Position numbers and translations under genes: made by a program. Under the pieces are notes generated by a model. It saw only the letters and a program-made list of their open reading frames with translations, was not told the DNA's origin and did no database searches. Below are positions 2,638 through 39,267 of a stretch of 44,322 bases of DNA, one piece after another (position 1 is the first letter of the stretch; each line of letters starts with the position of its first letter). The DNA comes from Planctomycetota bacterium. Its GTDB lineage: Bacteria > Planctomycetota > UBA8108 > UBA1146. The stretch spans positions 1-44,322 of the forward strand of contig JAPKAM010000010.1 of the NCBI GenBank assembly GCA_028825265.1, read 5' to 3'.

Positions 2638-4455
2638 ATGAAGCAGAGTGGATTCAATCCTGGATCGCGACCGGGTCTGATCGCGATCAGACCGTGGATG
2701 TTGTCTTTATTCTTGAGCATCTTGATTTCCACTGCCGGAGTCGGACAAGGGGTCGTTCTTTCTCTCGATACTGCTGATCTGACCGTGGCGCCGGGGATGC
2801 AATTCGATGTCGAACTACGAGTCGAAAACCCGGATGAGTTGTCGATTCAAGGAATCCAGCAGGTGGTGTCGTGGAATTCGTCGGCGCTTCAACTACTCTC
2901 CGTAACCCTTCCTGATCAAATTCTTGGGGCTCCCGCGGTGCTTGCACTGGCCTGGAACGCGCCTCCGCCGGTTGGACCCGGGGGTGATCTTGGTTGTAGC
3001 CAGTGGTGGGATGGACAGGGGGAAGAAGCCTTCAGTCTTGGGCTGGTACTGGATGGACCCTCGACGCAGGCTTCATTTCCTCTGGCAGTGTTACACATGC
3101 GGGTCAACGCCTTCGCGGGCAATGGCGATTCTACAATTTCAGCACCACTTGCTGATCTGTCATGTGGCTGGTTGGGGCCCATCGTCACCAATCCCACCGG
3201 AGAGATCATTGCCACGACGGCGACTTCATTGAATCTGACGGTCAGCGATCTTCCGGGACCTACCACTCTTCAGTGTGCTTCGGCGGCGGAGACGGTTTAT
3301 CTGACGTGGCAAGAATCAACTGTTTTCGATGTCATCCAGATCGAACGAGACGGAACTCTGCTGGCTGTACTGGATGGCGCAATCGGATCGTTCGAGGATG
3401 CTGGAATCCCACTCGGGACAGTGGTGAATTACCGGGTACGAGGTTTTTTAAACACTTTGCCATCGGCGGCATCGTCCTGCTCAGTGACCGTCGATGGAGC
3501 GATCGCTCAGCCGGTGGGATTATCGTGTGTGAGCAGTATCTCGGGGATCTTGATGAGCTGGCAAAATCCATTGCCCTATCAGTCCATCTCCATCATCAGA
3601 AATGGATCTACACTGGTATCTCTGCCTGCCGGGAGTTCCAGTTTTCTGGATGACAATCCTGATCTTGCGGGCATCATCGATTACCAAGTGGTCGGATCGA
3701 TCGGTGGACAATCGAGTGAAGCCAGTAGCTGCCAGGTCGATATCCCGGTTCCGGATGGACTTTTCATCCGAGGTGACTGCACTGCAGATGGAACCCTGAA
3801 CCTCGCGGATGCCGTCACCGCCTTGCAATATCTGTTCATCGGCGGTGAGATTCCCTGTGCATCGGCGGCTGATCATGACGATGATGGAACTCTGGATCTG
3901 AGCGACGGGATCTCTTTCCTCTCCTACCTGTTCATTCTCGGAGATCCGCCAGCACCTCCATTCCCAACGGTCGGGGCGGATCCCACTCCAGATTCGCTGG
4001 GCTGTGAGGTGTCGTGTACGGCGCCGGCATGTTTCATCGGGTTGGATGGAGATGAGTGTCATAGTGCGATCTTGGTGGGGCTGGGAGATAGCCAGTTCGA
4101 CACCACCAATTCGACCACTTCCACGGATCCCTACAGCGATGACAATTGCAATGCCAGTTTGCTGGGTCTGATGCAGCAGGATATTTGGTTCAGTTTCATG
4201 GCACCAGCGGATGGCTTCGCCTCCTTTTCTCTCTGCGAGCAGGTCGGCTTTGATTCGGATCTGGTGGTCTACGAAGGATTTTGCACTTCGATGGTACAAC
4301 TCGGCTGTAATGGAGATGACAACAGTTGCCTGAATTTACTGAATTCCAGAGTGAGTGGAATCCCGATCAGTCAGGGCGCCAGTTACCTGATTCGGATTGG
4401 CGGTTGGGACAACCTGGCGTATGGCTCGGGAACCCTGAGCATTACCATCGACTGA
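2638..4455 (+). CDS. Secreted cohesin-like / FN3-like / dockerin-like modular protein
   Basis: This is an exported protein of 605 residues with no catalytic domain that I can recognise. After a charged N-region, the hydrophobic segment MLSLFLSILISTAGVG (about 21-36) is a Sec signal peptide. Residues about 40-203 resemble a cohesin-type beta sandwich (LSLDTADLTVAPGMQFDVEL). Two fibronectin-III-like repeats follow (about 207-286 and 292-370), each with the pattern LxW ... RDG/RNG ... YxV. A paired calcium-loop, dockerin-like module (about 378-436) and the proline-rich PFP...DPTPDSLGCE tail come next, then a C-terminal beta-sandwich (about 465-605). This layout is typical of planctomycete exported proteins. 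The function is unknown; surface attachment or protein-protein binding is an inference. Its 3' end overlaps the end of the opposing PPTase gene by 14 bases. Confidence 0.85.
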   Translation: MKQSGFNPGSRPGLIAIRPWMLSLFLSILISTAGVGQGVVLSLDTADLTVAPGMQFDVELRVENPDELSIQGIQQVVSWNSSALQLLSVTLPDQILGAPAVLALAWNAPPPVGPGGDLGCSQWWDGQGEEAFSLGLVLDGPSTQASFPLAVLHMRVNAFAGNGDSTISAPLADLSCGWLGPIVTNPTGEIIATTATSLNLTVSDLPGPTTLQCASAAETVYLTWQESTVFDVIQIERDGTLLAVLDGAIGSFEDAGIPLGTVVNYRVRGFLNTLPSAASSCSVTVDGAIAQPVGLSCVSSISGILMSWQNPLPYQSISIIRNGSTLVSLPAGSSSFLDDNPDLAGIIDYQVVGSIGGQSSEASSCQVDIPVPDGLFIRGDCTADGTLNLADAVTALQYLFIGGEIPCASAADHDDDGTLDLSDGISFLSYLFILGDPPAPPFPTVGADPTPDSLGCEVSCTAPACFIGLDGDECHSAILVGLGDSQFDTTNSTTSTDPYSDDNCNASLLGLMQQDIWFSFMAPADGFASFSLCEQVGFDSDLVVYEGFCTSMVQLGCNGDDNSCLNLLNSRVSGIPISQGASYLIRIGGWDNLAYGSGTLSITID

Positions 4456-5167
4456 GGCCGACCAGTTGTGGATCGACATCTACCATCTGATGATCGACCC
4501 CTGCATAAGTGATGGCGTATCGGACCATCGAAGTGCGTTCTCCTGCGATGATGGACCAGAGCGCCGGATGATCGCCCTCAATTCTTGAATCGAGCAGGTC
4601 GCCTCCTTTAGCAGGATTCACCTGGCAGTCGAATTTCCGCAATGGGATGGTCATTCCTCCGCCATGCGCCTTCACGAATGATTCCTTCTGGGTCCAGAGA
4701 TGGAAGAAAGAGGTCCGTTGCTGATCGACCGGCAGCGCTCGCCACTGGCTCAACTCCCGCGGACTGAAACAACGGGCTGCCAAGTCTTCTATAGGTGCAT
4801 CCGGGCGCACCCTTTCCAAATCGACTCCGATGCTATGGCAGGTCGAAATAGCAACCATCGCCAGAGATTCGGTGTGCGACAGATTGAATACGATCGGTTC
4901 GTCATCGAGGGTTGGTTTGCCATGCTTGCCGATGTTTAGGAAAATTTCTGGCGCCGCGATTCCGAGGTAATGGGAGAGCACCAATCTCAAGCCTGCTCGA
5001 GCCACGGTGGCTCGGAGCCCAATCTCTGGCACCACCCCACGATTCTTCATCGGCTTCTCTGATTCGGGCAGGAACTCGACCAGCTGATCGATTCGTTCGA
5101 GCGATTCATCGAGGCTGAAACACCACACCTCGATGGTCTGATCATCTGGCGTGGGGTTGAGATTCAT
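4442..5167 (-). CDS. Sfp-type 4'-phosphopantetheinyl transferase
   Basis: It transfers phosphopantetheine from CoA to the serine of ACP domains. Its probable target is the three ACPs of PfaA, encoded at the head of the same operon. The 241-residue protein shows the family signatures GKP (83-85), FNLSHT (94-99), GVDLE (114-118, with the magnesium-binding Asp and Glu) and WTQKESFVKAHGGGM (158-172). The ATG at 5167 overlaps the oleD stop as ATGA, so I chose it over a 27-residue upstream extension to 5248 that would run through oleD. It is the last of eight coupled genes. Its TAA lies inside the 3' end of the convergent secreted-protein gene. The enzyme family is secure; the ACP target is inferred from position. 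Confidence 0.93.
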   Translation of the reverse strand: MNLNPTPDDQTIEVWCFSLDESLERIDQLVEFLPESEKPMKNRGVVPEIGLRATVARAGLRLVLSHYLGIAAPEIFLNIGKHGKPTLDDEPIVFNLSHTESLAMVAISTCHSIGVDLERVRPDAPIEDLAARCFSPRELSQWRALPVDQQRTSFFHLWTQKESFVKAHGGGMTIPLRKFDCQVNPAKGGDLLDSRIEGDHPALWSIIAGERTSMVRYAITYAGVDHQMVDVDPQLVGLSRW

Positions 5168-6168
5168 CGGACTGGTTCTGACGTTTGAGTGAGACTGTCT
5201 GCGAGGCGCTGAAGCCCATCTTCGGTGGAGATTCTCGGTTCCCAACAAAGATCATTTCTGGCTGCAGACAGATCGAACCAATGACTGGTCGACAGTTGTT
5301 TGGCCGTGAAACGAGTCAATGAAGGCTCCCCGGTGACTCCTGGAATTCGATGGAGCCATTCCAGAAGGGTGGCGATCCACCAGGCCATTCGAGGCGAGAC
5401 ATCCGGTTTGATCACTTCCAGATGAGCCGCTTTCAGGATTCCTGCGATCAAGCGATGGAGTTCGATCGGTTCCCCGTTGGCGATGAAGTAGCAACGCCCA
5501 CAACAGGGCGACCCGATCCTCAAGACATCGAGTGCGGCGACGTGAGCATCGATCACATTGTCGATGTATGTCGCATCGATGAGAGTTCCGGGAGCATCGA
5601 TCAGACGTAGTCGCCCCTTCCGGGCTCTCTCGAGAATACGAGGGACAAGATGACGATCTCCTGGCCCCCAGACCAGGTGAGGACGGAGAGCGACGGTCGC
5701 TAAATTTTCGTCGTTTGCAGAAAGCACAGCCTTCTCTGCCAACGCCTTGGTTCTTGGGTAGTGCGCAAGGAATTTCTCAGGATACGGAACCTGCTCGTCG
5801 ATTCCTTCCTGGTGGTCGCCAGAGAAGACCACGCTCGGAGATGAAGTGAAAATCAACCGTTCGACTCGCTGAAGTCGACATGCTGCGATGACGTGTTCTG
5901 TTCCCAATACATTACATTCATCGAAGTGGCGTGCAGGACCCCAGACTGCTGCGAGTGCCGCAACATGGAACACGACCTGACAGCCAGTGACTGCCAGGCG
6001 TACGGCTTCAGCATCGGCGAGGTCGCCACGAATGGTCACGATTCCATCATCTTCCAGCTGTGGGTAATCTCCTCGCTGGAAGGTCACGACATCATGCCCA
6101 AGTTTCTTCAAGCGCCGGCTCAGTTCTCCACCGATGAATCCACCGGCTCCGGTCACCAGGATCTTCAT
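5164..6168 (-). CDS. oleD: OleD-type NAD(P)-dependent 2-alkyl-3-ketoacid reductase
   Basis: This is the second step of head-to-head olefin synthesis: reduction of the 2-alkyl-3-keto acid made by OleA to a 2-alkyl-3-hydroxy acid. It is a 334-residue extended short-chain dehydrogenase. The dinucleotide-binding motif GAGGFIG is at residues 7-13, a TSSPSVVF segment at about 108-115 supplies the catalytic Ser region, and the YxxxK pair is Tyr137 and Lys141 (YPRTK). The sequence also resembles 3-beta-hydroxysteroid dehydrogenase-like proteins, to which OleD is related. The OleD call therefore rests mainly on its place after oleA, oleB and oleC. It overlaps oleC upstream (ATGA at 6168-6165) and the PPTase gene downstream in the same way. 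Confidence 0.9.
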   Translation of the reverse strand: MKILVTGAGGFIGGELSRRLKKLGHDVVTFQRGDYPQLEDDGIVTIRGDLADAEAVRLAVTGCQVVFHVAALAAVWGPARHFDECNVLGTEHVIAACRLQRVERLIFTSSPSVVFSGDHQEGIDEQVPYPEKFLAHYPRTKALAEKAVLSANDENLATVALRPHLVWGPGDRHLVPRILERARKGRLRLIDAPGTLIDATYIDNVIDAHVAALDVLRIGSPCCGRCYFIANGEPIELHRLIAGILKAAHLEVIKPDVSPRMAWWIATLLEWLHRIPGVTGEPSLTRFTAKQLSTSHWFDLSAARNDLCWEPRISTEDGLQRLADSLTQTSEPVR

Positions 6169-7811
6169 CGAAGATTCCGTGCAGCGAATTGGCTCAAGGA
6201 TTCACGATTAATCTTGGCGTTGTGGCGGATATCGACAGGGAATGGACCCGGAAAGATGAAGTGTTCGATCTGGTCAGCCCCGGACACGGAAGAACCGAGC
6301 CTCTTCAGTTCTTCGATGAGTGGAATCGGATCAGACCCTGAGGTTTCGTTCAACTCGACACAAAGAACCGCTTTCTGCTGACCTGAAGGACCGAATCCGA
6401 CCAGCGCAGTGCGGCGAACTCTGGGGTGAAGGTCGAATACTCGTTCGATGGCGACGGTGTGAAGATCTCCGGTGGCGGTGGTGACCATCTGTCCACGTCG
6501 ACCTCGAAACCAGATTCTAGCCAAAGAGTCGAGGGTTCCTAGGTCACCGGTTCGGTGCCACAGCACTCCTTGTGGGTCGATGTACTTGTGAGCTTGGTCG
6601 GACTCTAGATCATCGTAGTAGGTCCGGGTCACCACCGCACCGCTGGCCCAGATCTCTCCGGCCCCCCCGGGAGCGAGTACATTTTCTGGTTGAGGTTTGT
6701 GGTCGATGGTGACGATGCGGATTTTGATTCCCTCGACCGGGGATCCGAGGCAGATTCCTTTTCCCAGAAGAGTCTCAGTTCTCGTTTCTAGAAATTCGCG
6801 GTGATCGATGCAGCAGAGAGGCATCGCTTCGGTGGCCCCATACGGAGTCTCGATGATGGCCTCGGGCGAAAGAGCCGCGACTAACGATTCAATTTCATCG
6901 TGACGAGCGGGAGCACCGGCGCTGACGATGCGACGCAATCCTGGCGCTTGCAGTTCGTTTTCACTCATGTAACGAGCCAGGTTGCCGAGCAATGCTGGTG
7001 AGGCGAACAAACTGGTGATGTTGAATCGATCCAGCAGATCCAGCAGGTGGACCGGGTTCGCTTCGGCGGGCCGGGTGAAATCGATGCTGGGAATAATCGA
7101 TGTCATTCCCAGTGCCACGCCGAACAGGCCGAAGAGGGGGAAAGTGGGGAGGTCCACCTCGCCTGGCTTGATCCGGTGCAAGCGACCAATCCAATCGATT
7201 TGACTCTCGATCAATGAATGATGGGAAACCGCACCCTTGGCCGGGCCAGTGCTGCCGGAGGTGAACAAGATGGCCGCAGTTTCCGATGCGTCAAGCACTG
7301 GTTCATCGAATGGAATCGCATGATCGACCTGTTTGCGAAGGTCTTCGATCCTCCGGGTGAAGGGTGGTATCAGCCCTCGACCCACCGAGATTCGGTGTTG
7401 GATGGTCGCCCTTGACCAGCCCATCAGGGCGCGTCCACGATGGGCACGAGGGATTCCGATGAATGCCTTCGGAGCCGCGCGAGCAATACACCGTCCTAGT
7501 CCTGGAATCCCCATTCCGGGGTCGATCATGACGATCGGCGCCCCGATGCGCAGCAACGCAAAGGTACAGGCTAGAAATTCACGACCTGGAGGGACCATCA
7601 GGACCGTGTTCATTCCACGTTTGATTCCTTGGCGGGTGAGTGCGTGACAGGTGCGATCGACCAGTTGGTCGAGTTCCTGAAAAGTGCGCGGTTGCCAGCT
7701 CTGTCTATCCAACTCCCACACGGCGACCTGGTCTGGACGATCCTTGGCCTGCTGACGCAAGCGACGGGCCACTCCAGCGGTCGGTGTGTAAGTCTGAGCG
7801 AGGGTACTCAT
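6165..7811 (-). CDS. oleC: OleC-type beta-lactone synthetase (AMP-dependent ligase family)
   Basis: It converts the beta-hydroxy acid from OleD to a beta-lactone using ATP. It is a 548-residue member of the ANL adenylating superfamily. Core motifs are intact: the P-loop-like TSGSTGPAKG (about residue 184), YGATEAMP (about 322) and HRTGDLG (about 420). The C-terminal small domain is shorter than in acyl-CoA synthetases, ending after a KINRES-type segment that contains the expected lysine. Fatty-acyl ligases share all these motifs. OleC is chosen because of the gene order oleA-oleB-oleC-oleD and the resemblance to OleC proteins. The start ATG at 7811 overlaps the oleB stop as ATGA. Confidence 0.92.
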   Translation of the reverse strand: MSTLAQTYTPTAGVARRLRQQAKDRPDQVAVWELDRQSWQPRTFQELDQLVDRTCHALTRQGIKRGMNTVLMVPPGREFLACTFALLRIGAPIVMIDPGMGIPGLGRCIARAAPKAFIGIPRAHRGRALMGWSRATIQHRISVGRGLIPPFTRRIEDLRKQVDHAIPFDEPVLDASETAAILFTSGSTGPAKGAVSHHSLIESQIDWIGRLHRIKPGEVDLPTFPLFGLFGVALGMTSIIPSIDFTRPAEANPVHLLDLLDRFNITSLFASPALLGNLARYMSENELQAPGLRRIVSAGAPARHDEIESLVAALSPEAIIETPYGATEAMPLCCIDHREFLETRTETLLGKGICLGSPVEGIKIRIVTIDHKPQPENVLAPGGAGEIWASGAVVTRTYYDDLESDQAHKYIDPQGVLWHRTGDLGTLDSLARIWFRGRRGQMVTTATGDLHTVAIERVFDLHPRVRRTALVGFGPSGQQKAVLCVELNETSGSDPIPLIEELKRLGSSVSGADQIEHFIFPGPFPVDIRHNAKINRESLSQFAARNLR

Positions 7812-8716
7812 ACTCGCTCCAGCGATCTTGCCACCGACTCGCGGAAGGATCGAATCGCCGGGATCACTCGCTCAGGAGCATCGTCGAGGAGGAGATGACT
7901 ACAGTCATCCCATCGATGATGTTCAGCAGCCGGAAAACGGCGTAACCATTCGTTCAGGAAACCATCGTCAAAGACCGGATCTTTCGATCCCCATAGCAAC
8001 AGCAATGGATGTTGCGACAGGGCAGAGAGTCCCGCTTCTACCTCGGCCAGCGTATCCCAGGAAGGATCGGAACGGTCGACCGGGATGTCCTGAACGAAGC
8101 GGTGTACCGCCAATCTGCTGTGGTAGTCGTGGTAGGGCGCCCGGTAGCCGGCTCGCTCGGCTCGTGACAGGCGTCTTCTGCGAGTTCCGATGGCCAGGGT
8201 GCCGAGGACGAACGCATCGAGCCGTCGGACCAAGAATTCACCGATCGGTCCTCGCGCCGGACGGATAATCCATGGAAACTTCATTCCCTTCGGAAGGGCA
8301 AATGCTGCGGTGTTCATCGCCACCAGCGATGAGAATCGTTGTGGCCTTCGGCCTGCGACACCGAACCCGATCGCCCCTCCCCAGTCATGTGCGACCAGAG
8401 TCGCTCCAGATTCGATGCCGAGGTGATCGAGCAATCGTTCCAGATCGTCGATTCGATCACCGAGTCTGTAGTTGTAGTCGGATTCCGGTGGTTGGTCTGA
8501 AAATCCACATCCGATGTGGTCTACGGCGATCACACGATGAGACATCGAGAGTTGAGAAATCAACCGTCTATAGTAGAAGGACCATGTCGGGTTTCCGTGG
8601 ACACAGATGATGGGATCACCCTGGCCCTCATCGACATAATGCATCCGATATCCACAACCACGGTCAAACCAGTGGTTCTGAAAGGGAAACTCTTCATCGA
8701 CAAACAGACGATTCAT
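7808..8716 (-). CDS. oleB: OleB-type beta-lactone decarboxylase (alpha/beta hydrolase)
   Basis: This is the last step of olefin synthesis: removal of CO2 from the beta-lactone to leave an internal alkene. The 302-residue protein has the haloalkane-dehalogenase-like alpha/beta hydrolase fold. The oxyanion segment HGNPTW is at 40-45. The nucleophile is Asp111 in AHDWGG, as in OleB and haloalkane dehalogenases, rather than the serine of esterases. The catalytic histidine is probably His274 (CSHLLLDD). Many bacteria fuse OleB to OleC, but here they are separate with an ATGA overlap. The open frame reaches 8743; I chose 8716 because that ATG overlaps the oleA stop as ATGA and gives the natural start MNRLFVDEEF. 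A dehalogenase is the main alternative, but the context argues against it. Confidence 0.92.
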   Translation of the reverse strand: MNRLFVDEEFPFQNHWFDRGCGYRMHYVDEGQGDPIICVHGNPTWSFYYRRLISQLSMSHRVIAVDHIGCGFSDQPPESDYNYRLGDRIDDLERLLDHLGIESGATLVAHDWGGAIGFGVAGRRPQRFSSLVAMNTAAFALPKGMKFPWIIRPARGPIGEFLVRRLDAFVLGTLAIGTRRRRLSRAERAGYRAPYHDYHSRLAVHRFVQDIPVDRSDPSWDTLAEVEAGLSALSQHPLLLLWGSKDPVFDDGFLNEWLRRFPAAEHHRWDDCSHLLLDDAPERVIPAIRSFRESVARSLERV

Positions 8717-9783
8717 CGCCACTCCCAACCGATCATTCGACACACCAAACCACTCCCGATGCCGAGAAATGCGACCTTCTTACCCGCCTCGAGAATCCCT
8801 CTCTCGGCAGCGATGGCTGCGGTCATCGGGATCGATACCGTACCCATGTTGCCAAGAAAAGGGTAAGTGATGAAATCGTTTTGTTCGGAGAGCCCCAGTG
8901 AAGGGAGGATTTCATTACGGTGCGCGGAGCCCACCTGGTGGCAGATGGTGCGATCGACATCCGACGGGCTCCACTGCATCTGCTCCAGAAAGCGTTTCCA
9001 GGTACGATTTCCCAGTTCAAGGCCATGCTTGAGGACTCCGATCGAGTCCGTTTCCATGAATTCGCGTCGTGATGCTGGATGTTCCTGATCTGGATCCACT
9101 TCGACACCCCAACGACACAGTTGATGCCAGCGTGGATCGGTCCCGTGTGCCGTTCCGAGGAGCAACGGACCGTCGCTGGAGATCCTCGATGAAACCAGCA
9201 ACATCGCGGCGGCTCCTGAGCCGCCAGTCAAGGTCGCCAGAGTCGAGATAAAGTGTTCCATCTTTGGCTCACGGAGCAGTTTTTGCTGAGCGATCCCGAC
9301 GATCTCTCGGGCGCTCTCACAGCAAACGATCAGTGCTGAATCGATCCGTCCGAGGCGAATCGCATCCGCGGCGAGTACGATTCCATCCATGGCGCCCAGG
9401 CAAGCATTGGTGATGTCATGAATCTCGACATCGACCGGCAGTTGTAACTTCGCTGCCACCGCACAGGCGGTCGCGGGCTCGTAGGCCTCGCGGCAGACGC
9501 CGGTGTAGGATAAACGGTCGATTTGATTCTTCTTCAGATCGACCTGGTCGAGAGCACTTTGACAAGCCTTGGCAGCCATCTCGGAGATACTGGTATTTAC
9601 GGGCCACCAGCGTCGTTCACGGACGCCAGTCAATTGCTCCAACTGGCCAGGCGCGATGCCCATCGCTTGCCATGCCGCTGCCACAGTGTCTTCGATGGCA
9701 CCACTGGTGACGATCTCGGGGGCAATCTCGATGCCGATGGAAGCCAGGTGCACATCATGCAATCCCGTCGGAATTGGATTCAT
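8713..9783 (-). CDS. oleA: OleA-type head-to-head acyl condensing thiolase
   Basis: OleA joins two activated fatty acyl chains by a non-decarboxylative Claisen condensation, giving a 2-alkyl-3-keto acid. The 356-residue protein has the FabH/thiolase fold. The triad is visible as Cys128 (DITNACLGA), His282 (ICHQVGSAH) and Asn312 (FLGNMGTVS). Glu102 in the segment REAYEPATA matches the position of the glutamate that distinguishes OleA from ordinary KAS III. The reading frame extends to 9996, but the first 71 residues are a basic shadow of pfaC. ATG 9783 overlaps the pfaC stop as ATGA. Standing directly behind the PUFA synthase subunits, it probably accepts their polyunsaturated acyl products. 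KAS III is the alternative, disfavoured by the following oleBCD. Confidence 0.93.
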   Translation of the reverse strand: MNPIPTGLHDVHLASIGIEIAPEIVTSGAIEDTVAAAWQAMGIAPGQLEQLTGVRERRWWPVNTSISEMAAKACQSALDQVDLKKNQIDRLSYTGVCREAYEPATACAVAAKLQLPVDVEIHDITNACLGAMDGIVLAADAIRLGRIDSALIVCCESAREIVGIAQQKLLREPKMEHFISTLATLTGGSGAAAMLLVSSRISSDGPLLLGTAHGTDPRWHQLCRWGVEVDPDQEHPASRREFMETDSIGVLKHGLELGNRTWKRFLEQMQWSPSDVDRTICHQVGSAHRNEILPSLGLSEQNDFITYPFLGNMGTVSIPMTAAIAAERGILEAGKKVAFLGIGSGLVCRMIGWEWR

Positions 9784-12700
9784 CGGTCGAGCTCCCTTCT
9801 CTCGATGGAGAAGTCTTCCATCGAGTAGATGGGCAGATCGTCGACCAGGAGCAGGCCGTCCGCCAGTATCAATCCTCGTTGATCGTCGATGCTCTTGATG
9901 TTGACCTCGACGATGACTCGTTTTCGATCGGGGATCACCTGTCCACGATAGGTCCACCGGTGGGGGATTCCCGGAGCCAGGGTGCGGGGCCGCCACTGCT
10001 CGGTACTACCCCAGCGATCCCTGGCCACGACCTGTAACAACTGCAGCATCGACTCCAAGCCGAGACTGCCTGGCCAGACGGGATCGCCCTGGAAGTGGGC
10101 GCGGAAAAACCATGCATCCTGGTCGACATCAATTCCACCACGGATAAATCCCTGACCTGCGGTGCCGCCATCCGGCACGAACAGTTCCACATCATCGATC
10201 ATTCGGAATCGACAATCGGGTCCATCGCTGTAGTGGGGAACTTCGAACGATCGTCCTCGCATCGCTTCGCGTGGTGGGATAGTTCTGCCGACCGCGCCTG
10301 GAAGTCCGACTTGTTGGGCGAGAGCCTCGGCGGGAAAGAATCCAAAGTAGGTGTTGCCCCGATAGACGGGACCGTTGCTGTCTCGCACCTCAAGATCAAA
10401 GTGCTGGATCCACATTCCGGCGGCAAAGTCCGCCGTGGTCAATCGAACCTCTGTCGTCAGCAATCCGATGTCGCGTCCCAACGGACGCAACTGGGTCGCT
10501 TCTCCACCAAGATTTCTGAATTGCATGGGGTGATCGCTGGTCAGCGCGGAGCCAATATAAGCGGCGAGCCAGCCACAGGGCTGCAGTGCAATTTCGATGA
10601 GCACTGCAAACGGCATCTCATCGGTGCCCCCCGCATCAAAGTACCACGCATCGGGAACCGCCAGGTATTCAGCGGTACAAGCTGCGCCGGGGGAGACCAC
10701 CCAGGGGGGGCCCTCAACACCGATGATCCGGTCGAGGAAACAGTAGGGCGGAGCGGGCAATCGAGCGATGAATCGATCCTCATCGAAGGGCAGATAGCGG
10801 TCACCGAAGGCCACGGATGGTCTGCCGCTGGCAAACTCGAGGATTTGCTGATGGTCGTAGAGGGTTGCCGCCGAGGAGCCGATGATCGGTGAATCTCCTC
10901 CACCTCCTTTGGCATCGATAGGAAGCAGTGGCTCTTCGACTGCAACTGCCGTGATGCGCTGACTCGACTCACTTCGAGACCACATCGCCTCGATGCGCTG
11001 GCGATTCAGTCCCGTCAAACGAAGAGACATTCCCTCCATCTCGACGATGGGGCGGCCATCGGCATACATGGTGGCATCTGTGATGACATAGGGTTCCGGT
11101 CGAAATCCAATCTCCTTGACCTGGACCTCGTAGCTGACCTGGTGTGTTCCCGGTAACACCTGGCCACGACAACGCAGCCGTCCGGCGATTCCTGGCACCG
11201 GCATCGGGATCACCTGATCGTGTTCGCCGACCCAACCCCAGGCCGTCAGTAGGGTCCGCAGGGTGTGAAGGCAGCACTCGTACATCAAGGTTCCCGGCAT
11301 CACCGGGTCGTCGCTGAAGTGACAGGTGAGGAACCAGTCATCGGGATGGATTTCCAGTTCTGCAACGGCTCTTCCCAGTCCCCAATCTCCTCCGGTGGGT
11401 TCGATCAGAGAGACCTGATCGAGCAGTCGCATTCGCCCTCCAGGGAGTCGATTGGGTGAATGGAGTCCAAGAGCAGCGAACCGATCATCGAAAGCGGTTG
11501 CCAGGTCGCCTCGACGCAACGCATCGATTTTGCTGCGATCGAGGTCGATAGTTTTGGTCCCTGCGGGGGGGCTCCATCCATCCGGTGCCACTGGTTGAGG
11601 GCGTGGCCGATGGGGTGCCTTGACGATTCCTCTTCCCTTGGCGAGTTCCTCTTGCGAGAAGAACCCAGCGCACCCGTCGCGCATCGAGATCAGAGGTTTT
11701 CCATCGACGGTGCCTTCGAAATGGAATCTGAAGAGAAGTGTCTTGTCCTGACGAAAGAACTCATCGATGTGAATGTCATAGATAATGGTGTTTCCCGGAG
11801 CGGGAAGATCGTCGTGGAAGATCACCTGTGCATCGAGCAATCGATAGGCGGACAATCCTCGGGTGTGAAGATCGGCACCGAGATAGGCAGAAAGGAACAG
11901 ATCTGCCTGGCCACTCTCCACTGCGATGGAGGTCGGAATCCTCCCGCCATCCAGGTACCAGCAGTCCTCCAGAATGTCGTGAGCCGTGACGATACGCCCC
12001 GGTCCAAGGGTGAGGGGTTGCCCTTCCATCTCGAGGATCCGATCGACCAGCATCAGTGGCTCATCGGGTAACCGGACCCTGGTCGGAAACTGGTCAGCGA
12101 TGGCATGTTTCGCTCCCAGCACCGGACCGACCAGACCGCGGGCGAACTCGAGACAGAGACTTCGGTCAAATAGGGCTGGGATCGTCTCGGGTGTGTCGAG
12201 TGCTACGGCTTCGATTTCGATGCTGGGTGGGGTCCGAAGGATGGTTTCGACCATGGCATCGGCATGGCCTGATGTTTTGAACTCTTCACTCAGAACTCGC
12301 CGGCTTTCTCGGGCCAGTTTCAGCCGTTCGATCAGTGAAGTGGGTGACACGGCCGAGGGGATGTCCTTGGCGGCCACCGCCTGGGTCGTTGGAGCCGGGG
12401 ATGGTGTTTGAATTTTCGGTGCCGAGTATTGTTTGAAAGATTCCAAGGGGGATGTTCTGGATGACGGGATCGGCGGAGCCTTCATCGCCGTACCTCCATC
12501 TTGGATGGTCAGCGCCATAGACGTATCTTCTGTTGAAGTCTCCGATCCAAGATAAGGTTCCAGATCGGCAGGAACCCGCTCGGCGATGCAGGCGGCGATG
12601 ATTCTACCAAGCGACAGTTCCTCATCTTCTCCGCGCCAGAAAAGTGGCAAGGTCCTGTGTGGAAGATCTCCCAGAATCTTGTGGGTCAAGCGGGAACAGG

Positions 12701-16583: not shown

Positions 16584-19500
16584 GGGCGTGCTTCTTCCGT
16601 CAATCGATCTCGTTGAAACGCAGAATCGAGAGACGCATCGATGACCACCTCTGCACCCTCGATGGTGATGGCAGGACTTCCGGTGCGATTGAGAATTTCA
16701 ACGCTGGCTATGGCGATCGAACCGATCGTTGAGTTGACCTGAATTCGGGTCTCGAGCAGCCCGCTATCGAGCGGGGAATGAATACGAAGTTTTGCGATTC
16801 CGCAGGGAAGGCAAGGGGTTTGCATATGGGCACGACTCCACAGGATCAAGGCCTGGAATAAGGCATCGATGCGGAGCGGATCGATGAGCCAATCGGAACG
16901 AGTCGGGTCATCGAACCAGGTCGAAGGCTTCGAGGTTCCTTCCGAGCGGATGGACAACTGTGTAGCGGTGATGGTTGAGACCTTCTGGATGCAGTGGAAT
17001 CGTGGTCCATGGAAGAGTTGGGTGGAGTATCCGGGATCACCATCGCCGCTGTATTCGGAAGCCATCAAGTTTGACCGGATGGCGGTTCGTTCGCCCAGCA
17101 GAACTTGTGCCCGGGCATGGAGGCGCTGATCCGCAGCGCACGATCGGATCTCCACCGGCACCCGTAGATGGTCCGATCGAGATTCGGGTGTCCCGGTCAT
17201 CCAGATGACCTGCTGCTCCTCGCGCGGATCAAGAATGACGCCTTTGAGAATCTTGAAGTCGTCGATGCCTTGAAGCTCGAGACCCGGATGGCGATGAAGA
17301 GCCGCCTGCGCAGACCATTCGAGGAGAAACGCCGCAGGAACCACCGCTCTTCCGTTGAGCACATGATCCTTCATCGCCGGGATTCGTTCGATCGAGAGGG
17401 ACAGGGTCTGTCCCGCTTCCATCCGCGAATTTCTTGGGGCTGCAACGGTGTTGGCTGCAACTGTGCTTGAGGAAACTGTGGTCGATGAAACTGTCGTCGA
17501 GGATCGGCCAGCGGAAGTGCCAGACTTGCGGTCGGAGTCGCGAACCAGGCGGGAGTCGTTACCGAAGACTGTCATCTGCTGCATCGCATCGGCGATCGAG
17601 CCTAGCGGTGCGAGAAGGATGCGCTGAGCCGGGCCCGTCGATTCCATCTTCTCGACGAAGATGCGAGCGCCCTGTGGCAGCGGAATCAGATCAATTCCTT
17701 CATCATGAAAGACAGACCGTAAACCCTCGTGCACCATTCCTCCAGCCCAGGGGCCCCATCCCAGGCTGTACACCTGGCAGTCGACCCTGCGAACGGATTC
17801 GAGGGTGGCCATCCGATTGAGAACCTCGTTGGCGGCGGCGTAATCGCTCTGACCCTTGCGACCCAGTCGCGCGGTGGTCGAGGAGAAGAAGGAGATGAAG
17901 TCGAGAGCCTCATCACGGCAGATGGAGAGGAGATGTCGAGCGGGATCGACTTTGGTGGTCCAGACCTGTTCGAATTGCTGGTCACTCTTGTCGCAGATCC
18001 AGCGGTCGGCGAGGACTCCCGCGCCGTGAATGATGCCCCGAACCGGCCCATGTTTGGCTCGCGCTTCATCGATGCAGCGGGTCAACTCTGCTCGGTCGCG
18101 GACATCCAGCGAACGGTAGTCGACTTCACAGCCGAGACTCCTCAGTTCATCGAGGTGTCGGGCCAAGTCACGTATCTTCCTGATTTCCATCGCTTGCTCA
18201 CGGATGCGAGCGGGAGAGTCCCCGGAAGTTAGATTACGGAACAGGTGATTTTCCAGTTGGTCGTCTGCAACTGCATCGGCCCATTTCGGCTCCGATCCCG
18301 GTTCGGCAGTGCGCCCTAGTAGTAGCAAACTGGGCTGGTAGCGGCGCGCTAGTTCATCGACACAAGCGGCAGTGACTCCTCGGGCTCCGCCGGTGACCAC
18401 CACCAGCGCTCCCTTGGGCATCAGAACTTTCGATGGTTGCGCGATCGCCAAGGGTTCCAGGTGAATCTCAAATCGCTCCTCAGTCGTCAGACCCACTTCC
18501 ATCCCGTGTCCCTCGAGCAATTCAACGACCAGCGAATCGACCGCTTGCCGTTCATCTTGTATTTGTGGAGACCAGTCGATGGATCGGACCTGAACTGTTG
18601 GCCACTCCCTGGCGGCACACTTGGCCATTCCAGAGAGCGCGGCACAGGCCGGATCGATGGTACGGGAGGTCGGGTCGAATTCTCCGAGGCCGAAACGTCC
18701 GTCAAAACGCTGCACCAATGCGACCAGTGGCGTCGAGTCGCCATCATGATCGAGAAGGAGTTTTCCCGTCTCGCGAAGCCACTGGAAGGAGTGGAGCATT
18801 GCCGGATCCGGATCGGATGGCGAGTCGACCACCAGCAGAAGCCCACCGAGGGTTGCGCTGATCGCTGCAGGAAAGCCATCTTCGATCGAGGCGAGCGAAG
18901 CCTGAACCGCAGAGATCCCCGATGCTCCCAAGCGTGCGACCAGCGCTGCTCCCAGTGCTGGTGCGTCACAAACGACAACCAGTGATCGACCTGGTGTCGG
19001 TATCCAACTCGATGCGCCGGTCACCCGCGGTACGGGTCGAGCTACGGCAACTGCCTCGAGAATCTTCACCTCGGGAATCGGTTCGTTGGCGACGGGCGAA
19101 TTCGATGGATCCTGAAGCGAGGTGCGGAGATCAGCGCTTTTCGAGCCAGGATTGGCCTCGACCCTGGTCGGGCGGGCAGCGGCTCGATCATCGGTGGCAC
19201 TCGAGTGATCTGGTCGATACCAGTCGACGATGGCGTCGATGCTTCGCAGGGTTCCGAGCAGTTCGGGAGGGATCGCCGGTAACTCGGGACGCTGCTCTCG
19301 AAGTGCAGAGAGAATTTCGACCCGCTTGATGCTATCGATGCCAAGATCCGCTTCCAGGTCGAGGTCGGTACCGATCGCTTCGGCTGGATAGCCGGTCTTG
19401 TCTGCCACCACGGTCACGATGGTGTCTCGGATGGTGTGATCGGAGTGGGCACTGGAAGTCGCCAGCGAGGACTCCGGTGGCTGAGGAATCGAAATTGCAG

Positions 19501-22500
19501 AAGATTCGGACGCGATCGCTGGTTCAGGATCTGTTTCGGTGGGTGCCTGCCCCGATGCCGAATACCACTCCACGATGGAGTCGATGGTGCGGAGAGTTCC
19601 CAGTCGCTCGGGAGGAATCGCAGGAAGTTCTGTTCTGCGTTCTCGCAAGGCCGAAAAGATCTCGACTCTCTTGATGCTATCAATCCCCAGATCGGCTTCC
19701 AGATCCAGATCAGTGGCGATGGCATCGATGGGATATCCGGTCTTGTCTGCGATCACCTCGCGGATCCAATGCTGCAAGGATCGAGTGCCCTCATTTTGTG
19801 GCGACGGAGCGACGACCTCGGGGGGTTGGATCAGCTCGGGTGGTGTCGGGGAAGCGGGTCGATGATTGGATTCGGAGCGATACCAGGAAACGATGGCATC
19901 AATGGTCCGTAGCGTGCCAAGCATCTCGGGTGGAATCGCCTTCAAATCGGGGCGGTGTTCGCGCAAGGCGGACAGGATCTCGACTCGCTTGATGCTATCG
20001 ATGCCCAGGTCTCCTTCCAGATCGAGGTCGGTAGCAATCGCCTCCGATGGATAGCCAGTCTTGTTTGCGACCACCTCGACCAGGAGTTCGGTCAACCCAT
20101 CTTCAGCCGCGATCGGTTCGATCGATGGGCTTTTCTCGAGAGTGGGAGTGGTGGGTTTCGGGGCTGTGGGCAGCGCGGTAGGAGGGGGTGGGGTCGCCGT
20201 GAGACTCGCCTCGAGAACCTGCTCTGCGGCGCGTTGTGCCTCGGCAAGAGTTCGCTGCATCGCCAGTGCCGCTTCGATCGCCTGCATCAGCGTTTCTTGA
20301 CTGCTGGCTTGCCGGGAAACCATCTCACCAGAGCCCTCGGTCGAGGGTTCGTCGGAGGCTACCGTCGATGGAATCATCGCTGAAGATGCCGATGGGATCC
20401 TCGATGGGACCATCGGTAGGACTGGAATTTCTGTGGCCACACTGGCCAGGTTTTTCGGTGGAGCGACTGCAGTTGAAGAGATCGCAGCGGTCACCTCCCC
20501 CGGTTTCAGATTGGCACCGCCGATCATCACCACCATCGCCGCCTCATCGGTCTTCGCCAGCGGAGTCCTAGGGTCCCAAGCACAAAGATCCACCGGGTGT
20601 CCCTCCACCGCCAGTCTGCCGATGGCCCTTGCCAGATCGGTACCATCCACCCTTTGTGCATCGATGCCGATCGCCGAAGATTGAGGAGACACTTCTGCGA
20701 GGATCGACTGAATCAGTCCTGTGAGCACCTGACCGGGACCCACCTCGAGGAAGGTGGTGGCACCGAAATGGACCATCTCCTCGATCATCCCCATGAACTG
20801 GACCGGCAGTGCGATCTGGTTGGAGAGCAATGACCTCGCTTCAGGTTCGGAATCGGGGTAGCGACGACCGGTACTGTTGGAAAACACCGGAAGTGCGGTG
20901 GAATGAATCCTCGCCTGTTTCAGGACATCTTCGAAGGGAGTCGCAGCGGATGCCACCTCCGGTGAATGGAACGCTGCGGCAACCGGCAATTTTCGGTGGC
21001 GAATTCCACGCTGCTCGAGGATTCGCATCGCATCGGAGATGGCCGGGGCCGATCCGGACAGAACGGCCTGCTGCGGCGCATTTCGATTGGCGATGATCAG
21101 ATGGGGACAGTTCTGTTCCACGAATCGTTCCAGTTCCCCGATGGGTAGGGCGACTGCGAGCATCGATCCCGCCTCATCTCCTCCCGCTCGGGCCATCAGT
21201 CGACCGCGGAAATTGGCGAGTTGGTGGAAATCGGTTTCTCCCAGTCGGCCGGCTGCCGCAAGGGCGGTGAGTTCGCCGAAGGAATGGCCGCCGAACATTT
21301 CTCCCTGGATGCCGAATCGAGCCAGAACCCGGTACAGGCCGAGGCTGACCGCACCCAGTGCTGGTTGAGCCACGTCGGTCTGGCGTAAGGCATCCTCGTG
21401 TACCGTCGGATCATCGCTCCAATCTCGTGGAGGCCAGATCTTGGAGGCCAGGCGCGAATCCTCCTGCTGGTTCCAGAAGACACGTTCTGCATCATCGACG
21501 ACTTGGATCATCTCAGGGAATCGACAGGCGGTGCTGCGGAGCATGTCGACTCGTTGAGAGCCTTGCCCGGGGAATATGACAGCCAGCGATCCTCTCCTGG
21601 GACCATGATCACGATCGATTCCTGTCGGCAGACTCCAGCGGGTTTCCTGTTCCTGTTGAACGGCCTCGAGAGCCGTTTGCAATCGTGCGGCAGCATCAGA
21701 GGAACGGCCGACGACGATACTGATCCGGTGATCGTCGCTCGCCTTGAATCGGGTACGACTGTCTCGCGCTACCGCATCGATCTCGACCGACTGACTCAGG
21801 TTCTTGACTTCGGTGAGTGCATGTTCGAGTTGCTGAAGCAGCGAATTCCGAGCAGTGGCGCTGTAACTAAAGAGCAGGGCGCAGTCGTTCCAGTCGGTTT
21901 CGATCCGGCCTGCGGAGTTCTCTTCCAGCACCGCATGGAAATTACTGCCTCCGAATCCAAAAGAGGAGACGGCTGCTCGCCTGGGATGGTCTGGATGCTG
22001 GACCCAGGGTCGGGCGATTTCTTCGATGTGGAACGGGGAATCCGATTCACGCAAGGTGTCGAGTGGCTGCCTGATTTTGATGCTGGGGGGCTGGACCTTG
22101 TGGTGCAACGCCAGCACCGCCTTGATCAGCCCGGCCGCTCCTGAGGCCGCCTTGGTGTGTCCGATCTGTGACTTGACCGAGCCGAGGGCACATCGGTGCG
22201 CTCGGCCGCCTTCTCGTGAATAGACCTCCTGTAGCGCGCGGAGTTCGATGGCATCCCCGACCGAGGTGCCAGTTCCGTGTGCCTCGACCAGTCCGATCGT
22301 CGATGGCGAAATCGAGGCCTGTTGATAAGCGTCCTGCAAGGCCCGTTGTTGCCCCTCGACCGTGGGGGCGTAGATGGCAGAGCCTCTTCCATCACTGGAT
22401 GTTCCGATCGAGAGGAGGCGAGCGTAAATCCGATCGCCATCTCGTACCGCGTCATCGAGTCGTTTCAGGACCACCAGTCCGATTCCTTCACCGAGAATGG

Positions 22501-23326
22501 TCCCGTCACCATTTCCATCGAAGGGTCGTGCATCTCCTGTCGGCGACAGAGCTGGAGTTTTGGAGAAGCACATGTACATGAATATATCGTTGAAGGTGTC
22601 CACTCCGCCGGTGATCACCATGTCGCTTCGGCCACTGCGCAGTTCAAGCGTTGCCATGTGAAGAGCTGCCAGAGAAGAAGCACACGCAGCATCGGTGACG
22701 CAGTTAGTGCCATGCAGATCGAGTCGATTGGCGATGCGCCCGGCGACCACATTGCCGAGCAAGCCCGGGAATGAATTTTCTTGCCAGGAGACATAGGAAT
22801 CGGAGATTCTTTTGACCACTTCGGAAGCGGTTTTCTCATCGATGCCAGATTCACGTAGGGCTCGCCACCAGTGCGGGTGCCCCAGTCGTGCTCCGAGTGG
22901 AACCACCAGTTCTAGTGCACCGGTGACCCCCAGAATGACCGAGGTTCGCGATCGGTCGAAGGTGGTTCGTGGATCGTATCCAGCATCGATCAGGGCTTGA
23001 CGGGCGGCGATCAGTGACAGTAATTGAGAGGTATCGGTGGCCTCGAGATCCCTCGGTGCAATGCCGAATTCGAGTGGGTTGAAGGGGACCGGAGTGAGAA
23101 AGCCACCGCGTCGGCCATAGGTACGATCTGCGGAGGATTTATCGCCGTCGTGGTAGTCGTCTGGATTCCAGTATCCCTCTGGAATCTCCTCGATCATGTC
23201 ACGGCCGTCTCGGATCCCTGCCCAGTATCCTTGGTGGTCCTGGGATCCGGGGAACATACAGCCGATACCGATGATGGCGATCGCCTGATCGGTGGTGGCG
23301 GCAGGCTTTGATGGGTTCTGGCTCAT
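16580..23326 (-). CDS. pfaA: PUFA synthase subunit PfaA (KS-AT-3xACP-KR-DH)
   Basis: This is the 2248-residue chain-elongating subunit of the PUFA synthase. Domains in order are: ketosynthase (about 12-470) with Cys215, His350 and His390; malonyl acyltransferase (about 580-880) with FPGQGSQ, Ser682 (GHSFGE) and His787; an Ala/Glu/Gln-rich helical linker (about 1010-1045); three ACPs with phosphopantetheine serines at 1111, 1217 and 1332, each in LGIDSIKRVEI; ketoreductase (about 1440-1910) with TGGARGVTAA, Ser1815 or nearby, Tyr1829 and Asn1833; and a C-terminal PKS-type dehydratase double hot-dog (about 1965-2240) with His1988 and Asp2154. Three ACPs is at the low end; known marine PfaA proteins often have four to nine. 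The ATG at 23326 overlaps the pfaD stop as ATGA. It works with PfaC and PfaD and needs the PPTase at the operon's end. Confidence 0.95.
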   Translation of the reverse strand: MSQNPSKPAATTDQAIAIIGIGCMFPGSQDHQGYWAGIRDGRDMIEEIPEGYWNPDDYHDGDKSSADRTYGRRGGFLTPVPFNPLEFGIAPRDLEATDTSQLLSLIAARQALIDAGYDPRTTFDRSRTSVILGVTGALELVVPLGARLGHPHWWRALRESGIDEKTASEVVKRISDSYVSWQENSFPGLLGNVVAGRIANRLDLHGTNCVTDAACASSLAALHMATLELRSGRSDMVITGGVDTFNDIFMYMCFSKTPALSPTGDARPFDGNGDGTILGEGIGLVVLKRLDDAVRDGDRIYARLLSIGTSSDGRGSAIYAPTVEGQQRALQDAYQQASISPSTIGLVEAHGTGTSVGDAIELRALQEVYSREGGRAHRCALGSVKSQIGHTKAASGAAGLIKAVLALHHKVQPPSIKIRQPLDTLRESDSPFHIEEIARPWVQHPDHPRRAAVSSFGFGGSNFHAVLEENSAGRIETDWNDCALLFSYSATARNSLLQQLEHALTEVKNLSQSVEIDAVARDSRTRFKASDDHRISIVVGRSSDAAARLQTALEAVQQEQETRWSLPTGIDRDHGPRRGSLAVIFPGQGSQRVDMLRSTACRFPEMIQVVDDAERVFWNQQEDSRLASKIWPPRDWSDDPTVHEDALRQTDVAQPALGAVSLGLYRVLARFGIQGEMFGGHSFGELTALAAAGRLGETDFHQLANFRGRLMARAGGDEAGSMLAVALPIGELERFVEQNCPHLIIANRNAPQQAVLSGSAPAISDAMRILEQRGIRHRKLPVAAAFHSPEVASAATPFEDVLKQARIHSTALPVFSNSTGRRYPDSEPEARSLLSNQIALPVQFMGMIEEMVHFGATTFLEVGPGQVLTGLIQSILAEVSPQSSAIGIDAQRVDGTDLARAIGRLAVEGHPVDLCAWDPRTPLAKTDEAAMVVMIGGANLKPGEVTAAISSTAVAPPKNLASVATEIPVLPMVPSRIPSASSAMIPSTVASDEPSTEGSGEMVSRQASSQETLMQAIEAALAMQRTLAEAQRAAEQVLEASLTATPPPPTALPTAPKPTTPTLEKSPSIEPIAAEDGLTELLVEVVANKTGYPSEAIATDLDLEGDLGIDSIKRVEILSALREHRPDLKAIPPEMLGTLRTIDAIVSWYRSESNHRPASPTPPELIQPPEVVAPSPQNEGTRSLQHWIREVIADKTGYPIDAIATDLDLEADLGIDSIKRVEIFSALRERRTELPAIPPERLGTLRTIDSIVEWYSASGQAPTETDPEPAIASESSAISIPQPPESSLATSSAHSDHTIRDTIVTVVADKTGYPAEAIGTDLDLEADLGIDSIKRVEILSALREQRPELPAIPPELLGTLRSIDAIVDWYRPDHSSATDDRAAARPTRVEANPGSKSADLRTSLQDPSNSPVANEPIPEVKILEAVAVARPVPRVTGASSWIPTPGRSLVVVCDAPALGAALVARLGASGISAVQASLASIEDGFPAAISATLGGLLLVVDSPSDPDPAMLHSFQWLRETGKLLLDHDGDSTPLVALVQRFDGRFGLGEFDPTSRTIDPACAALSGMAKCAAREWPTVQVRSIDWSPQIQDERQAVDSLVVELLEGHGMEVGLTTEERFEIHLEPLAIAQPSKVLMPKGALVVVTGGARGVTAACVDELARRYQPSLLLLGRTAEPGSEPKWADAVADDQLENHLFRNLTSGDSPARIREQAMEIRKIRDLARHLDELRSLGCEVDYRSLDVRDRAELTRCIDEARAKHGPVRGIIHGAGVLADRWICDKSDQQFEQVWTTKVDPARHLLSICRDEALDFISFFSSTTARLGRKGQSDYAAANEVLNRMATLESVRRVDCQVYSLGWGPWAGGMVHEGLRSVFHDEGIDLIPLPQGARIFVEKMESTGPAQRILLAPLGSIADAMQQMTVFGNDSRLVRDSDRKSGTSAGRSSTTVSSTTVSSSTVAANTVAAPRNSRMEAGQTLSLSIERIPAMKDHVLNGRAVVPAAFLLEWSAQAALHRHPGLELQGIDDFKILKGVILDPREEQQVIWMTGTPESRSDHLRVPVEIRSCAADQRLHARAQVLLGERTAIRSNLMASEYSGDGDPGYSTQLFHGPRFHCIQKVSTITATQLSIRSEGTSKPSTWFDDPTRSDWLIDPLRIDALFQALILWSRAHMQTPCLPCGIAKLRIHSPLDSGLLETRIQVNSTIGSIAIASVEILNRTGSPAITIEGAEVVIDASLDSAFQRDRLTEEARP
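19211..20101 (-). repeat. Three tandem ACP-coding repeats inside pfaA
   Basis: Three homologous segments encode acyl carrier domains whose active serine codons are centred near 19996, 19678 and 19333. The copies are about 318 and 345 bases apart. The best-conserved DNA runs through the codons for LGIDSIKRVEI. Linkers between copies are proline-rich and diverged. Such repeats can expand or contract by recombination, changing ACP number and hence synthase output. This is a coding repeat, not an intergenic array. Confidence 0.9.
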
Positions 23327-24993
23327 GATGGGATCCTCATCGAACTGATTCGGGAATCGGAGACCAGTGCCGGTGACCGATCGATGGCACCCGGAGGTAA
23401 CACCACTCCCTGGCGCCGAAGTTGGGTTTGTCTGGATGAGATGGCGGCACCCTGTAGGAGGGTCCGGGCGACCTTCGCCACTCGTCGTGCAGCGGCGGTT
23501 TCAAGCCAGCTCCCCCGGGTCCATTCATTGAAGGCGCCCATCGCTGGGCCGCACCAGATTTGATAGTCCAGTTTTCGCTCCAGATCTCCGGCGTTGGCCC
23601 ATTGCGAGGAGAGTCCCAGGTACCAGCGAAACACCAGAGCCATCTTGTGATGCGGATCCTGGCTCGCCCGTTCCACCTGGGCTGGCTCCCGTTGCATGAA
23701 GAAGGAACGAGTTTGTTGCCAGACCTGATCGATGGACATTCGAAATAGATCCTTCTCCAGCCGGGATCGCTCCGTTGGCGGAATCTGATCGAGTGAAGAG
23801 TAGGTTCGGTACAGTTCGAGCAGTTTCTTGGCCCGAGGGCCAAACAGGGTTCCGCGGCGAAGAACCTGGAGATGGACTCCCATCTCGAACATATCGGAAG
23901 CCGGAGCCATGATGACATCCGCAGGTCCCGCAGATGCCAGCATCGAACGTACGACATCACTCGAGCCCGATTCGACGCAGGCCTGATGCACCGATCCGAT
24001 GACGAAGTAATCCGCCCCCAGTGCCAGAGCTGCACAGATGGCATCGGGGGTGCCCAGTCCACCGGCGGCTCCGATTCGAACTTGGCCGGTCGCCGGAACC
24101 TGTAGGGCGATCTCATCACGTAATCGTGTGAAGGCCGGAACCAGGGTCGCCATCGGTCGATTGTCGGTGTGGCCCCCCGAATCGGCCTCAGCCGTGATGT
24201 CATCACAGAGCGGCATCGATCGGGCCCACTGTGCCTGGTCTGGAGTGATTTCGCCGCGTTCGAGGAGCGAGGAAACCATCGTCGGGGGGGCGGGGGAGAG
24301 GAACTTGCGAGCGACCTCGAGGCGTGAAGCTTTGGCCATCACTCGCAGTCCTGCGATGATCTGTCCGCTCTGCGCTCGTTGCAAAGTTTGCAATCGCATA
24401 CGGACCAAGGGTTCGGTGATATCGAGAAAAGCACTCGCCTCGACGCAGGGCACCTGTTCCTTCACCAGCATCCGAGATGTCTGATCCTCCACCGATGGTT
24501 CTGCCGGGCTGTGGATCAAATTGCATCCCCACGGTTGCCCGGGCAGTTGTTGCTTCAACTGGTGGAGCGATGCGCCAATCATTTGCGGGGTTTGTCCCGC
24601 AGCACCGTAAAAGGAGAGGATCCCGATTCGTGCCAATTCAACCACCAGATCGACGGAAGAAATTCCGTTGGCCATCGATCCTGCGACGTAACTGCAGGAG
24701 GTTCCGTGATGGTGTTGAAAGGCCGCCGATCCGAGAGACTGGAGAGGAGTGGGTGGGAGCCATCCGACCAGCGCGCAGGCATCGCCGGGAACTGTCGCAG
24801 CAACCGTATTGGTCTCGAGTTCTACTCGACCACCTCGGACTGCAACGATGGATCCGCATCCAGAATCGATCAGGGCATAGGCTTGATCGAGATCAGCGAT
24901 GGCATCCACCAGCGAGGTGCGGGTGACCTCGTCGGTGGGATACCAGTTTCCCAGCGATGACCGGGATGCTTGATGCCCTCGCTGCTGTCCCAT
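23323..24993 (-). CDS. pfaD: PUFA synthase enoylreductase PfaD
   Basis: PfaD is the FMN-dependent TIM-barrel enoylreductase of PUFA synthases, saturating selected double bonds during each cycle. The 556-residue protein has the family's flavin-site segment GGLGTPDAICAALALG near residues 308-323, followed by DYFVIGSV. Its C-terminal half is characteristic of PfaD (RGTLFGPRAKKLLELY, and the helical region with FRWYLGLSSQW and GAFNEWTRGSWLE). It opens the operon; pfaA follows with an ATGA overlap. The start ATG at 24993 is supported by GGGGAG five bases upstream. A 151-base gap separates it from the lipoprotein gene upstream, so the operon promoter is probably there. Nitronate monooxygenases share the barrel, but length and neighbours settle the call. 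Confidence 0.95.
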   Translation of the reverse strand: MGQQRGHQASRSSLGNWYPTDEVTRTSLVDAIADLDQAYALIDSGCGSIVAVRGGRVELETNTVAATVPGDACALVGWLPPTPLQSLGSAAFQHHHGTSCSYVAGSMANGISSVDLVVELARIGILSFYGAAGQTPQMIGASLHQLKQQLPGQPWGCNLIHSPAEPSVEDQTSRMLVKEQVPCVEASAFLDITEPLVRMRLQTLQRAQSGQIIAGLRVMAKASRLEVARKFLSPAPPTMVSSLLERGEITPDQAQWARSMPLCDDITAEADSGGHTDNRPMATLVPAFTRLRDEIALQVPATGQVRIGAAGGLGTPDAICAALALGADYFVIGSVHQACVESGSSDVVRSMLASAGPADVIMAPASDMFEMGVHLQVLRRGTLFGPRAKKLLELYRTYSSLDQIPPTERSRLEKDLFRMSIDQVWQQTRSFFMQREPAQVERASQDPHHKMALVFRWYLGLSSQWANAGDLERKLDYQIWCGPAMGAFNEWTRGSWLETAAARRVAKVARTLLQGAAISSRQTQLRRQGVVLPPGAIDRSPALVSDSRISSMRIPS

Positions 24994-27910: not shown

Positions 27911-27911
27911 T

Positions 27912-35062: not shown

Positions 35063-35071
35063 CGAGCTGGC

Positions 35072-37574: not shown

Positions 37575-37618
37575 AACCGGTTCCTCTCTGAATCAAATAG
37601 GCGTTCATCGGAATGTAA

Positions 37619-37634
37619 TGCAAATGACAAGCCA
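37619..37634 (-). promoter_or_regulatory. Sigma-54 (RpoN) type promoter
   Basis: Read on the - strand, the sequence is TGGCTTGTCATTTGCA. The essential GG and GC dinucleotides are separated by exactly ten bases, and the flanks TGGC and TTGCA match the sigma-54 consensus TGGCAC-N5-TTGCA except at two bases of the -24 box. Transcription would begin near 37608, about 34 bases before the TTG start of the COG4671 gene. The neighbouring regulator gene encodes an activator with the GAFTGA loop needed to open sigma-54 complexes. Confidence 0.7.
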
Positions 37635-37644
37635 TACAGAAGTA

Positions 37645-37656
37645 ATTGTATACAAT
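37645..37656. promoter_or_regulatory. Perfect 12-bp palindrome next to the sigma-54 promoter
   Basis: ATTGTATACAAT is a perfect inverted repeat, centred about 42 bases upstream of the predicted transcription start and 11 bases upstream of the -24 box. Its position would suit a repressor, co-activator or bending protein. The cognate protein is unknown. Confidence 0.5.
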
Positions 37657-37733
37657 GTCTCCCGATATGTCGATGTGATCTTGTATCTAGTTCCGTAGTA
37701 GTGGTTTAGGGAACTCAAGGGGAGGCAATTCGG

Positions 37734-37831: not shown

Positions 37832-37859
37832 GTGACTGGGCAACATCTCTCTCGGGATC

Positions 37860-39257: not shown

Positions 39258-39267
39258 GGTGTACCTT

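Follow-up and report, generated by a model that had tools for sequence, protein, structure and literature searches.

The closest described counterpart of the locus analysed here is the tandem pfaD-A-B-C-oleA-B-C-D-pfaE cluster that Yoshida et al. (2016) found in Geobacter bemidjiensis, an organism that makes C31:9 (PMC4882568). Shulse & Allen (2011) had found that 44 of 80 genomes carry both pfa-like and ole genes, frequently in linkage, and had proposed olefin synthesis as the pathway supplied by the Type I clusters of deltaproteobacteria and Gemmata (PMC3098273). In Shewanella and Photobacterium, a PUFA synthase likewise feeds OleABCD, with C31:9 as the Shewanella product. Allemann et al. 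(2019) found that the acyl chains for OleA come from the Pfa synthase, and Shewanella OleA together with the pfa operon in E. coli gave a 31:8 ketone (PMC6463001). The presence of the genes does not guarantee the product, since in P. profundum SS9 the pfa and ole operons are adjacent and C31:9 was not detectable (PMC6463001).

The window, by which we mean the whole 44,322-nucleotide stretch that was analysed, is the entire contig of a Planctomycetota metagenome-assembled genome (MAG) of 2.98 Mb. Its pfa-ole cluster contains the same genes in the same order as that of G. bemidjiensis (Type I of Shulse & Allen, PMC3098273) and shares with it a pfaBC-type fusion, as in Type I, and a PUFA-type phosphopantetheinyl transferase (PPTase). 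It lies in a different phylum, and its OleA is about 50% identical to that of other Geobacteraceae. Geobacteraceae loci do not always keep pfaC and oleA next to each other, and their acyltransferase (AT) motif reads GYSLG, against GHSLG in the window. The pfaABCD(E) and oleABCD operons of Shewanella and Photobacterium differ further: they are separate or merely adjacent, PfaB stands alone, a PfaT thioesterase is associated, and EPA is also made (PMC6463001). Type L and myxobacterial pfa1-3 clusters resemble the window in having pfaD first and a fused third gene, but their order is KS-CLF-DH2-AT, with a fused AGPAT in myxobacteria, whereas the order in the window is KS-CLF-AT-DH2, and an AGPAT is lacking (PMC4882568, PMC3098273). 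The initial annotation had suspected that the pfa-ole linkage might already have been noticed, and it was right (PMC4882568, PMC3098273, PMC6463001). Because the same order and the coupling are published, the window adds one more case to a known arrangement; a categorically new arrangement was considered and rejected on the basis of PMC4882568, PMC3098273 and the named genomes with the same order. That the cluster is coupled to hydrocarbon synthesis is a well-founded reading, and one that was known before.

An eight-gene pfa-ole operon

Eight co-directional ORFs on the minus strand run from 24993 to 4442 in the order pfaD-pfaA-pfaBC-oleA-oleB-oleC-oleD-PPTase:

23323-24993, minus: pfaD, 556 aa, trans enoyl reductase; TIGR02814 583.7 bits (cut-off 449)
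16580-23326, minus: pfaA, 2248 aa, KS-MAT-ACP(3)-KR-DH from Pfam/NCBIfam domains; TIGR02813 1407.7 (cut-off 1010)
9780-16583, minus: pfaBC fusion, 2267 aa, KS-CLF-AT(PfaB-like)-DH-DH; TTG start overlapping the pfaA stop
13287-13301, minus: motif II GHSLG of the PfaB-like AT; His replaces the Tyr of bacterial PfaB
8713-9783, minus: oleA, 356 aa from the ATG at 9783; thiolase fold, head-to-head Claisen condensation; NF006720 399 (cut-off 285)
7808-8716, minus: oleB, beta-lactone decarboxylase of the haloalkane-dehalogenase fold and family; nucleophile motif HDWGG
6165-7811, minus: oleC, beta-lactone synthetase, an AMP-binding enzyme; NF006754 over cut-off
5164-6168, minus: oleD, NADPH-dependent 2-alkyl-3-oxoalkanoate reductase; YxxxK; NF042422 405 bits (cut-off 580)
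4442-5167, minus: pfaE-like PPTase of the Sfp/HetI type, from the ATG at 5167; PF01648

Profile matches and ORF positions bear out the span 4442-24993 and the eight gene identities given in the initial annotation, and its claim of a four-base overlap at every junction is exact (seven of seven: ATGA at six, TTGA at the pfaA/pfaC junction, where the start codon is TTG). For oleA, oleB and the PPTase gene the longest ORFs start further upstream, and each also has an ATG at −4. Such overlaps are common to nearly all readable junctions in the window's family, and gaps are more frequent outside it. Promoter and terminator scans at the operon ends gave nothing above chance, so it is only the overlaps that suggest co-transcription of the eight genes as a single unit. 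A stand-alone pfaB is absent from the operon; a PfaB-like AT is fused within PfaC, between the CLF and two FabA-type dehydratases. Among the operon genes we found none for a glycerophosphate acyltransferase (AGPAT) or a thioesterase.

Both the PUFA synthase and the Ole pathway are complete, as had been proposed, with all genes found and the checked catalytic residues kept. PfaA carries DAACASS in the KS, GHSFG in the MAT, YAAAN in the KR, HVLNGRAVVP in the PKS-type DH, and three LGIDSIK serine sites in its ACPs. The pfaBC product has two ketoacyl-synt and two FabA stretches in Pfam and a TIGR02816 PfaB stretch at residues 1000-1345; the KS Cys is present, the CLF is without the cysteine, and both DH domains have their His. 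The PPTase shows the PUFA-type motifs P0 (LRLVLS), P1a (HGKP) and P1b (FNLSH), as defined in PMC3098273. Aligned to Xanthomonas campestris OleA (3S21, E 9e-41), the window's OleA keeps Cys128, His282 and Asn312, all in invariant columns. The genes oleB, oleC and oleD are present and intact with their motifs kept. Against the olefin beta-lactone synthetase models, OleC scores 465 bits (NF045786) and 450 bits (NF045785), both under cut-off, and OleD matches NF042422 and NF042423 strongly yet under cut-off.

The host genome has a single pfaD and a single oleA, both in the cluster. Sister genomes that were assembled independently show synteny over the 44-kb block, which led us to reject misassembly or contamination. 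Upstream, a co-directional block on the minus strand (25145-43088) encodes two beta-helix proteins, a histidine kinase, an NtrC-type sigma-54 regulator, three glycosyltransferases, an ABC exporter, an APH-like kinase and an alginate-export-like barrel, and it lies beside pfa-ole in several genera of the family. Two proteins without a Pfam match (29717-30835 and 43147-44271, minus strand) are conserved in position in the family. On the other side, a gene for a 605-aa galactose-binding-like protein (2638-4455, plus strand) converges with the PPTase gene, the 3' ends overlapping by 14 nt; where the downstream region is readable (G008), this convergent gene and an aconitase gene are found.

Spread of the linkage and grouping of OleA

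The order pfaC-oleA-oleB-oleC-oleD, often followed by a PPTase gene, also occurs in Desulfuromonadales, Geobacteraceae, gammaproteobacterial MAGs, Verrucomicrobiales, Ozemobacter, one Elusimicrobia genome and Isosphaeraceae, and the same gene order is found throughout the window's family. Among the planctomycetes whose pfa and ole genes are linked is one in culture, Aquisphaera insulae JC669 (L103). A genome search for the pfaC-oleA adjacency, as the initial annotation had suggested, showed that it recurs: among 80 named loci, a count biased upward by the use of a pfa-linked OleA as query, 63 have pfaC on the strand of oleA and no more than 4 kb upstream of it, and in 47 the distance is at most 150 nt. 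The closest records that carry a name come from Planctomycetota MAGs, and the isolate names of several point to a probable marine origin. Within the window's family, pfaD was found in all four genomes of the same genus and in 10 of 11 of the same family. The coupling is thus widespread, and the Geobacter-type cluster extends to a seemingly marine planctomycete family with small genomes.

Several loci in the survey show irregularities. In Candidatus Uabimicrobium amorphum (L122 / L208), pfaD does not lead the cluster but sits downstream of oleD. Two record titles look wrong: a MAG contig titled 'Klebsiella pneumoniae' (L114) holds a gammaproteobacterial pfa-ole cluster, and a 'Proteobacteria bacterium' DEBay contig (L092) encodes an OleA identical to that of G007, a member of the window's planctomycete family. 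Sequencing errors or decay would account for oleA in two pieces in two planctomycete genomes (G190:C3, G265:C229) and for an in-frame TAG in one pfaD (G097:C67).

Across 392 planctomycete genomes, a high-scoring OleA type occurs in 47, of which 46 have PfaD over cut-off; in 98 others only a low-scoring type is found, and PfaD exceeds the cut-off in one of these (Fisher p 1.4e-35). The OleA of pfa-less planctomycetes belongs to the same OleA family and pathway as the window's. The split in scores could stem from the query, and a tree of 131 OleA rows was used as separate evidence: a branch with support 100 sets the 20 sampled low-scoring rows apart. Geobacteraceae OleA groups with the pfa-associated OleA, and the OleA of pfa-bearing planctomycetes stays in its own group even where pfaD and oleA are on different contigs or far apart. 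The co-occurrence counts and the supported split thus make the PUFA partner a predictor of OleA type, even when the genes are unlinked, and OleA sequence alone separates PUFA-fed from FAS II-fed olefin pathways within one phylum.

A comparison of PfaC with OleA was also raised in the initial annotation. Their distances correlate with a Mantel r of 0.90, but r falls to 0.07 when the pairs outside the family are limited to their more distant half, and congruence at depth is therefore not established. Co-evolution from the distance correlation alone was rejected, the OleA grouping and co-occurrence being better evidence. We likewise discarded the idea that the long branch of OleA to the window's sub-lineage marks a change of substrate, because strong divergence there extends to PfaD, PfaA and flanking proteins and so is not specific.

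Proposed pathway and product

The operon structure, the OleA grouping and the known relatives support the link proposed at the outset, a PUFA synthase feeding OleABCD. The PPTase would activate the three tandem ACPs of PfaA, and PfaA, PfaBC and PfaD would iteratively build an all-cis polyunsaturated acyl chain, which in Shewanella is 16:4n-3. Two such chains, probably taken from the ACPs, would be condensed head to head by OleA; OleD would then reduce the beta-keto acid, OleC close the beta-lactone and OleB decarboxylate it to an internal alkene. That Pfa-built chains are joined by OleABCD into such an alkene, with C31:9 or a close homologue as the likeliest product, we consider highly probable. 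Chain length and unsaturation are not readable from sequence, and the OleC and OleD scores under the equivalog cut-offs count against this explanation; the proposed chemistry, substrate, product and membrane role are modelled on relatives. C31:9 has been reported in planctomycete species descriptions; among the papers that could be searched, none on this compound in planctomycetes came up.

The absence of an AGPAT or thioesterase gene from the operon, the pfa-specific OleA group and the Tyr to His change in the AT make it plausible that hydrocarbon, and not EPA/DHA phospholipid, is the main product. The most serious alternative is that the cluster makes phospholipid PUFA as well, with hydrocarbon as a side branch, much as Shewanella pealeana makes both EPA and C31:9 (PMC6463001); the PfaB-like AT retains its catalytic Ser and His, and acyl transfer could still take place. 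We think this unlikely, given the lack of those two genes, the sharing of one string of overlapping genes by pfa and ole, the roughly tenfold drop in EPA caused by co-expressed OleA (PMC6463001), and the motif II change, of a kind that cut acyl transfer in Moritella PfaB (PMC12895367).

It is far less probable that OleABCD use ordinary FAS II acyl chains and that pfa makes a separate lipid, the adjacency being incidental. Most surveyed planctomycetes with an OleA match are without PfaD and must use FAS II chains, but the OleA of pfa-bearing planctomycetes forms a separate, fully supported group even when unlinked, and the adjacency is maintained across phyla. An end product at the beta-lactone or ketone stage, as with the beta-lactones formed in other bacteria by OleC and OleD without active OleB (PMC7064751), is very unlikely here: the operon includes oleB, which overlaps the genes on either side, and the encoded enzyme retains HDWGG as its nucleophile motif.

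A Tyr to His change in the PfaB-like acyltransferase

In bacterial PfaB a Tyr precedes the catalytic Ser (GYSxG), and in Moritella PfaB the Tyr607His exchange reduced long-chain acyl transfer; malonyl transferases are the enzymes that pair His with the neighbouring Asn (PMC12895367). The Tyr, a feature of EPA/DHA-type PfaB, is absent from the window, where the PfaB-like AT (about residues 960-1350 of PfaBC) has His1096 and keeps the catalytic Ser in GxSxG (GHSLG) and the motif III His (TSVHC). Across an alignment of 62 PfaBC proteins from linked clusters, Tyr precedes the Ser in 47; the others have His (11), Asn (3) or Leu (1). All His-bearing proteins fall in the window's family, and Tyr is found in 47 of the 51 other aligned linked clusters. 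Two family members on partial contigs (L046, L080) also have His, which brings the total to 13 genomes, the window and 12 relatives. Because Tyr stands at this site in sister genomes within the family (G007, G009) and the order (G016), we take His as the derived state, and the change probably happened once. Its presence in these 13 genomes of the sub-lineage is the single point of this locus that looks new.

The change could weaken the release of free PUFA, leaving OleA as the main exit, alter AT loading, or be neutral. A stronger reading, which we hold only tentatively and consider doubtful, is that the AT of this sub-lineage has lost the Tyr for long-chain transfer, so that PUFA release is inefficient, OleA is the sole exit and the synthase is dedicated to hydrocarbon. 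The change is compatible with a hydrocarbon-dedicated synthase and is no proof of one; it is not required for hydrocarbon synthesis, since Tyr-bearing Geobacter clusters also accompany C31:9. It offers a direct test of the role of the PfaB AT where the acyl chain goes to OleA, and it bears on the division of flux between omega-3 lipids and hydrocarbons. In a separate planctomycete lineage (L197, L199, L134), where oleB, oleC and oleD were not found near pfaC-oleA, the PfaB-like AT motif reads GNSLG, with Asn at this position.
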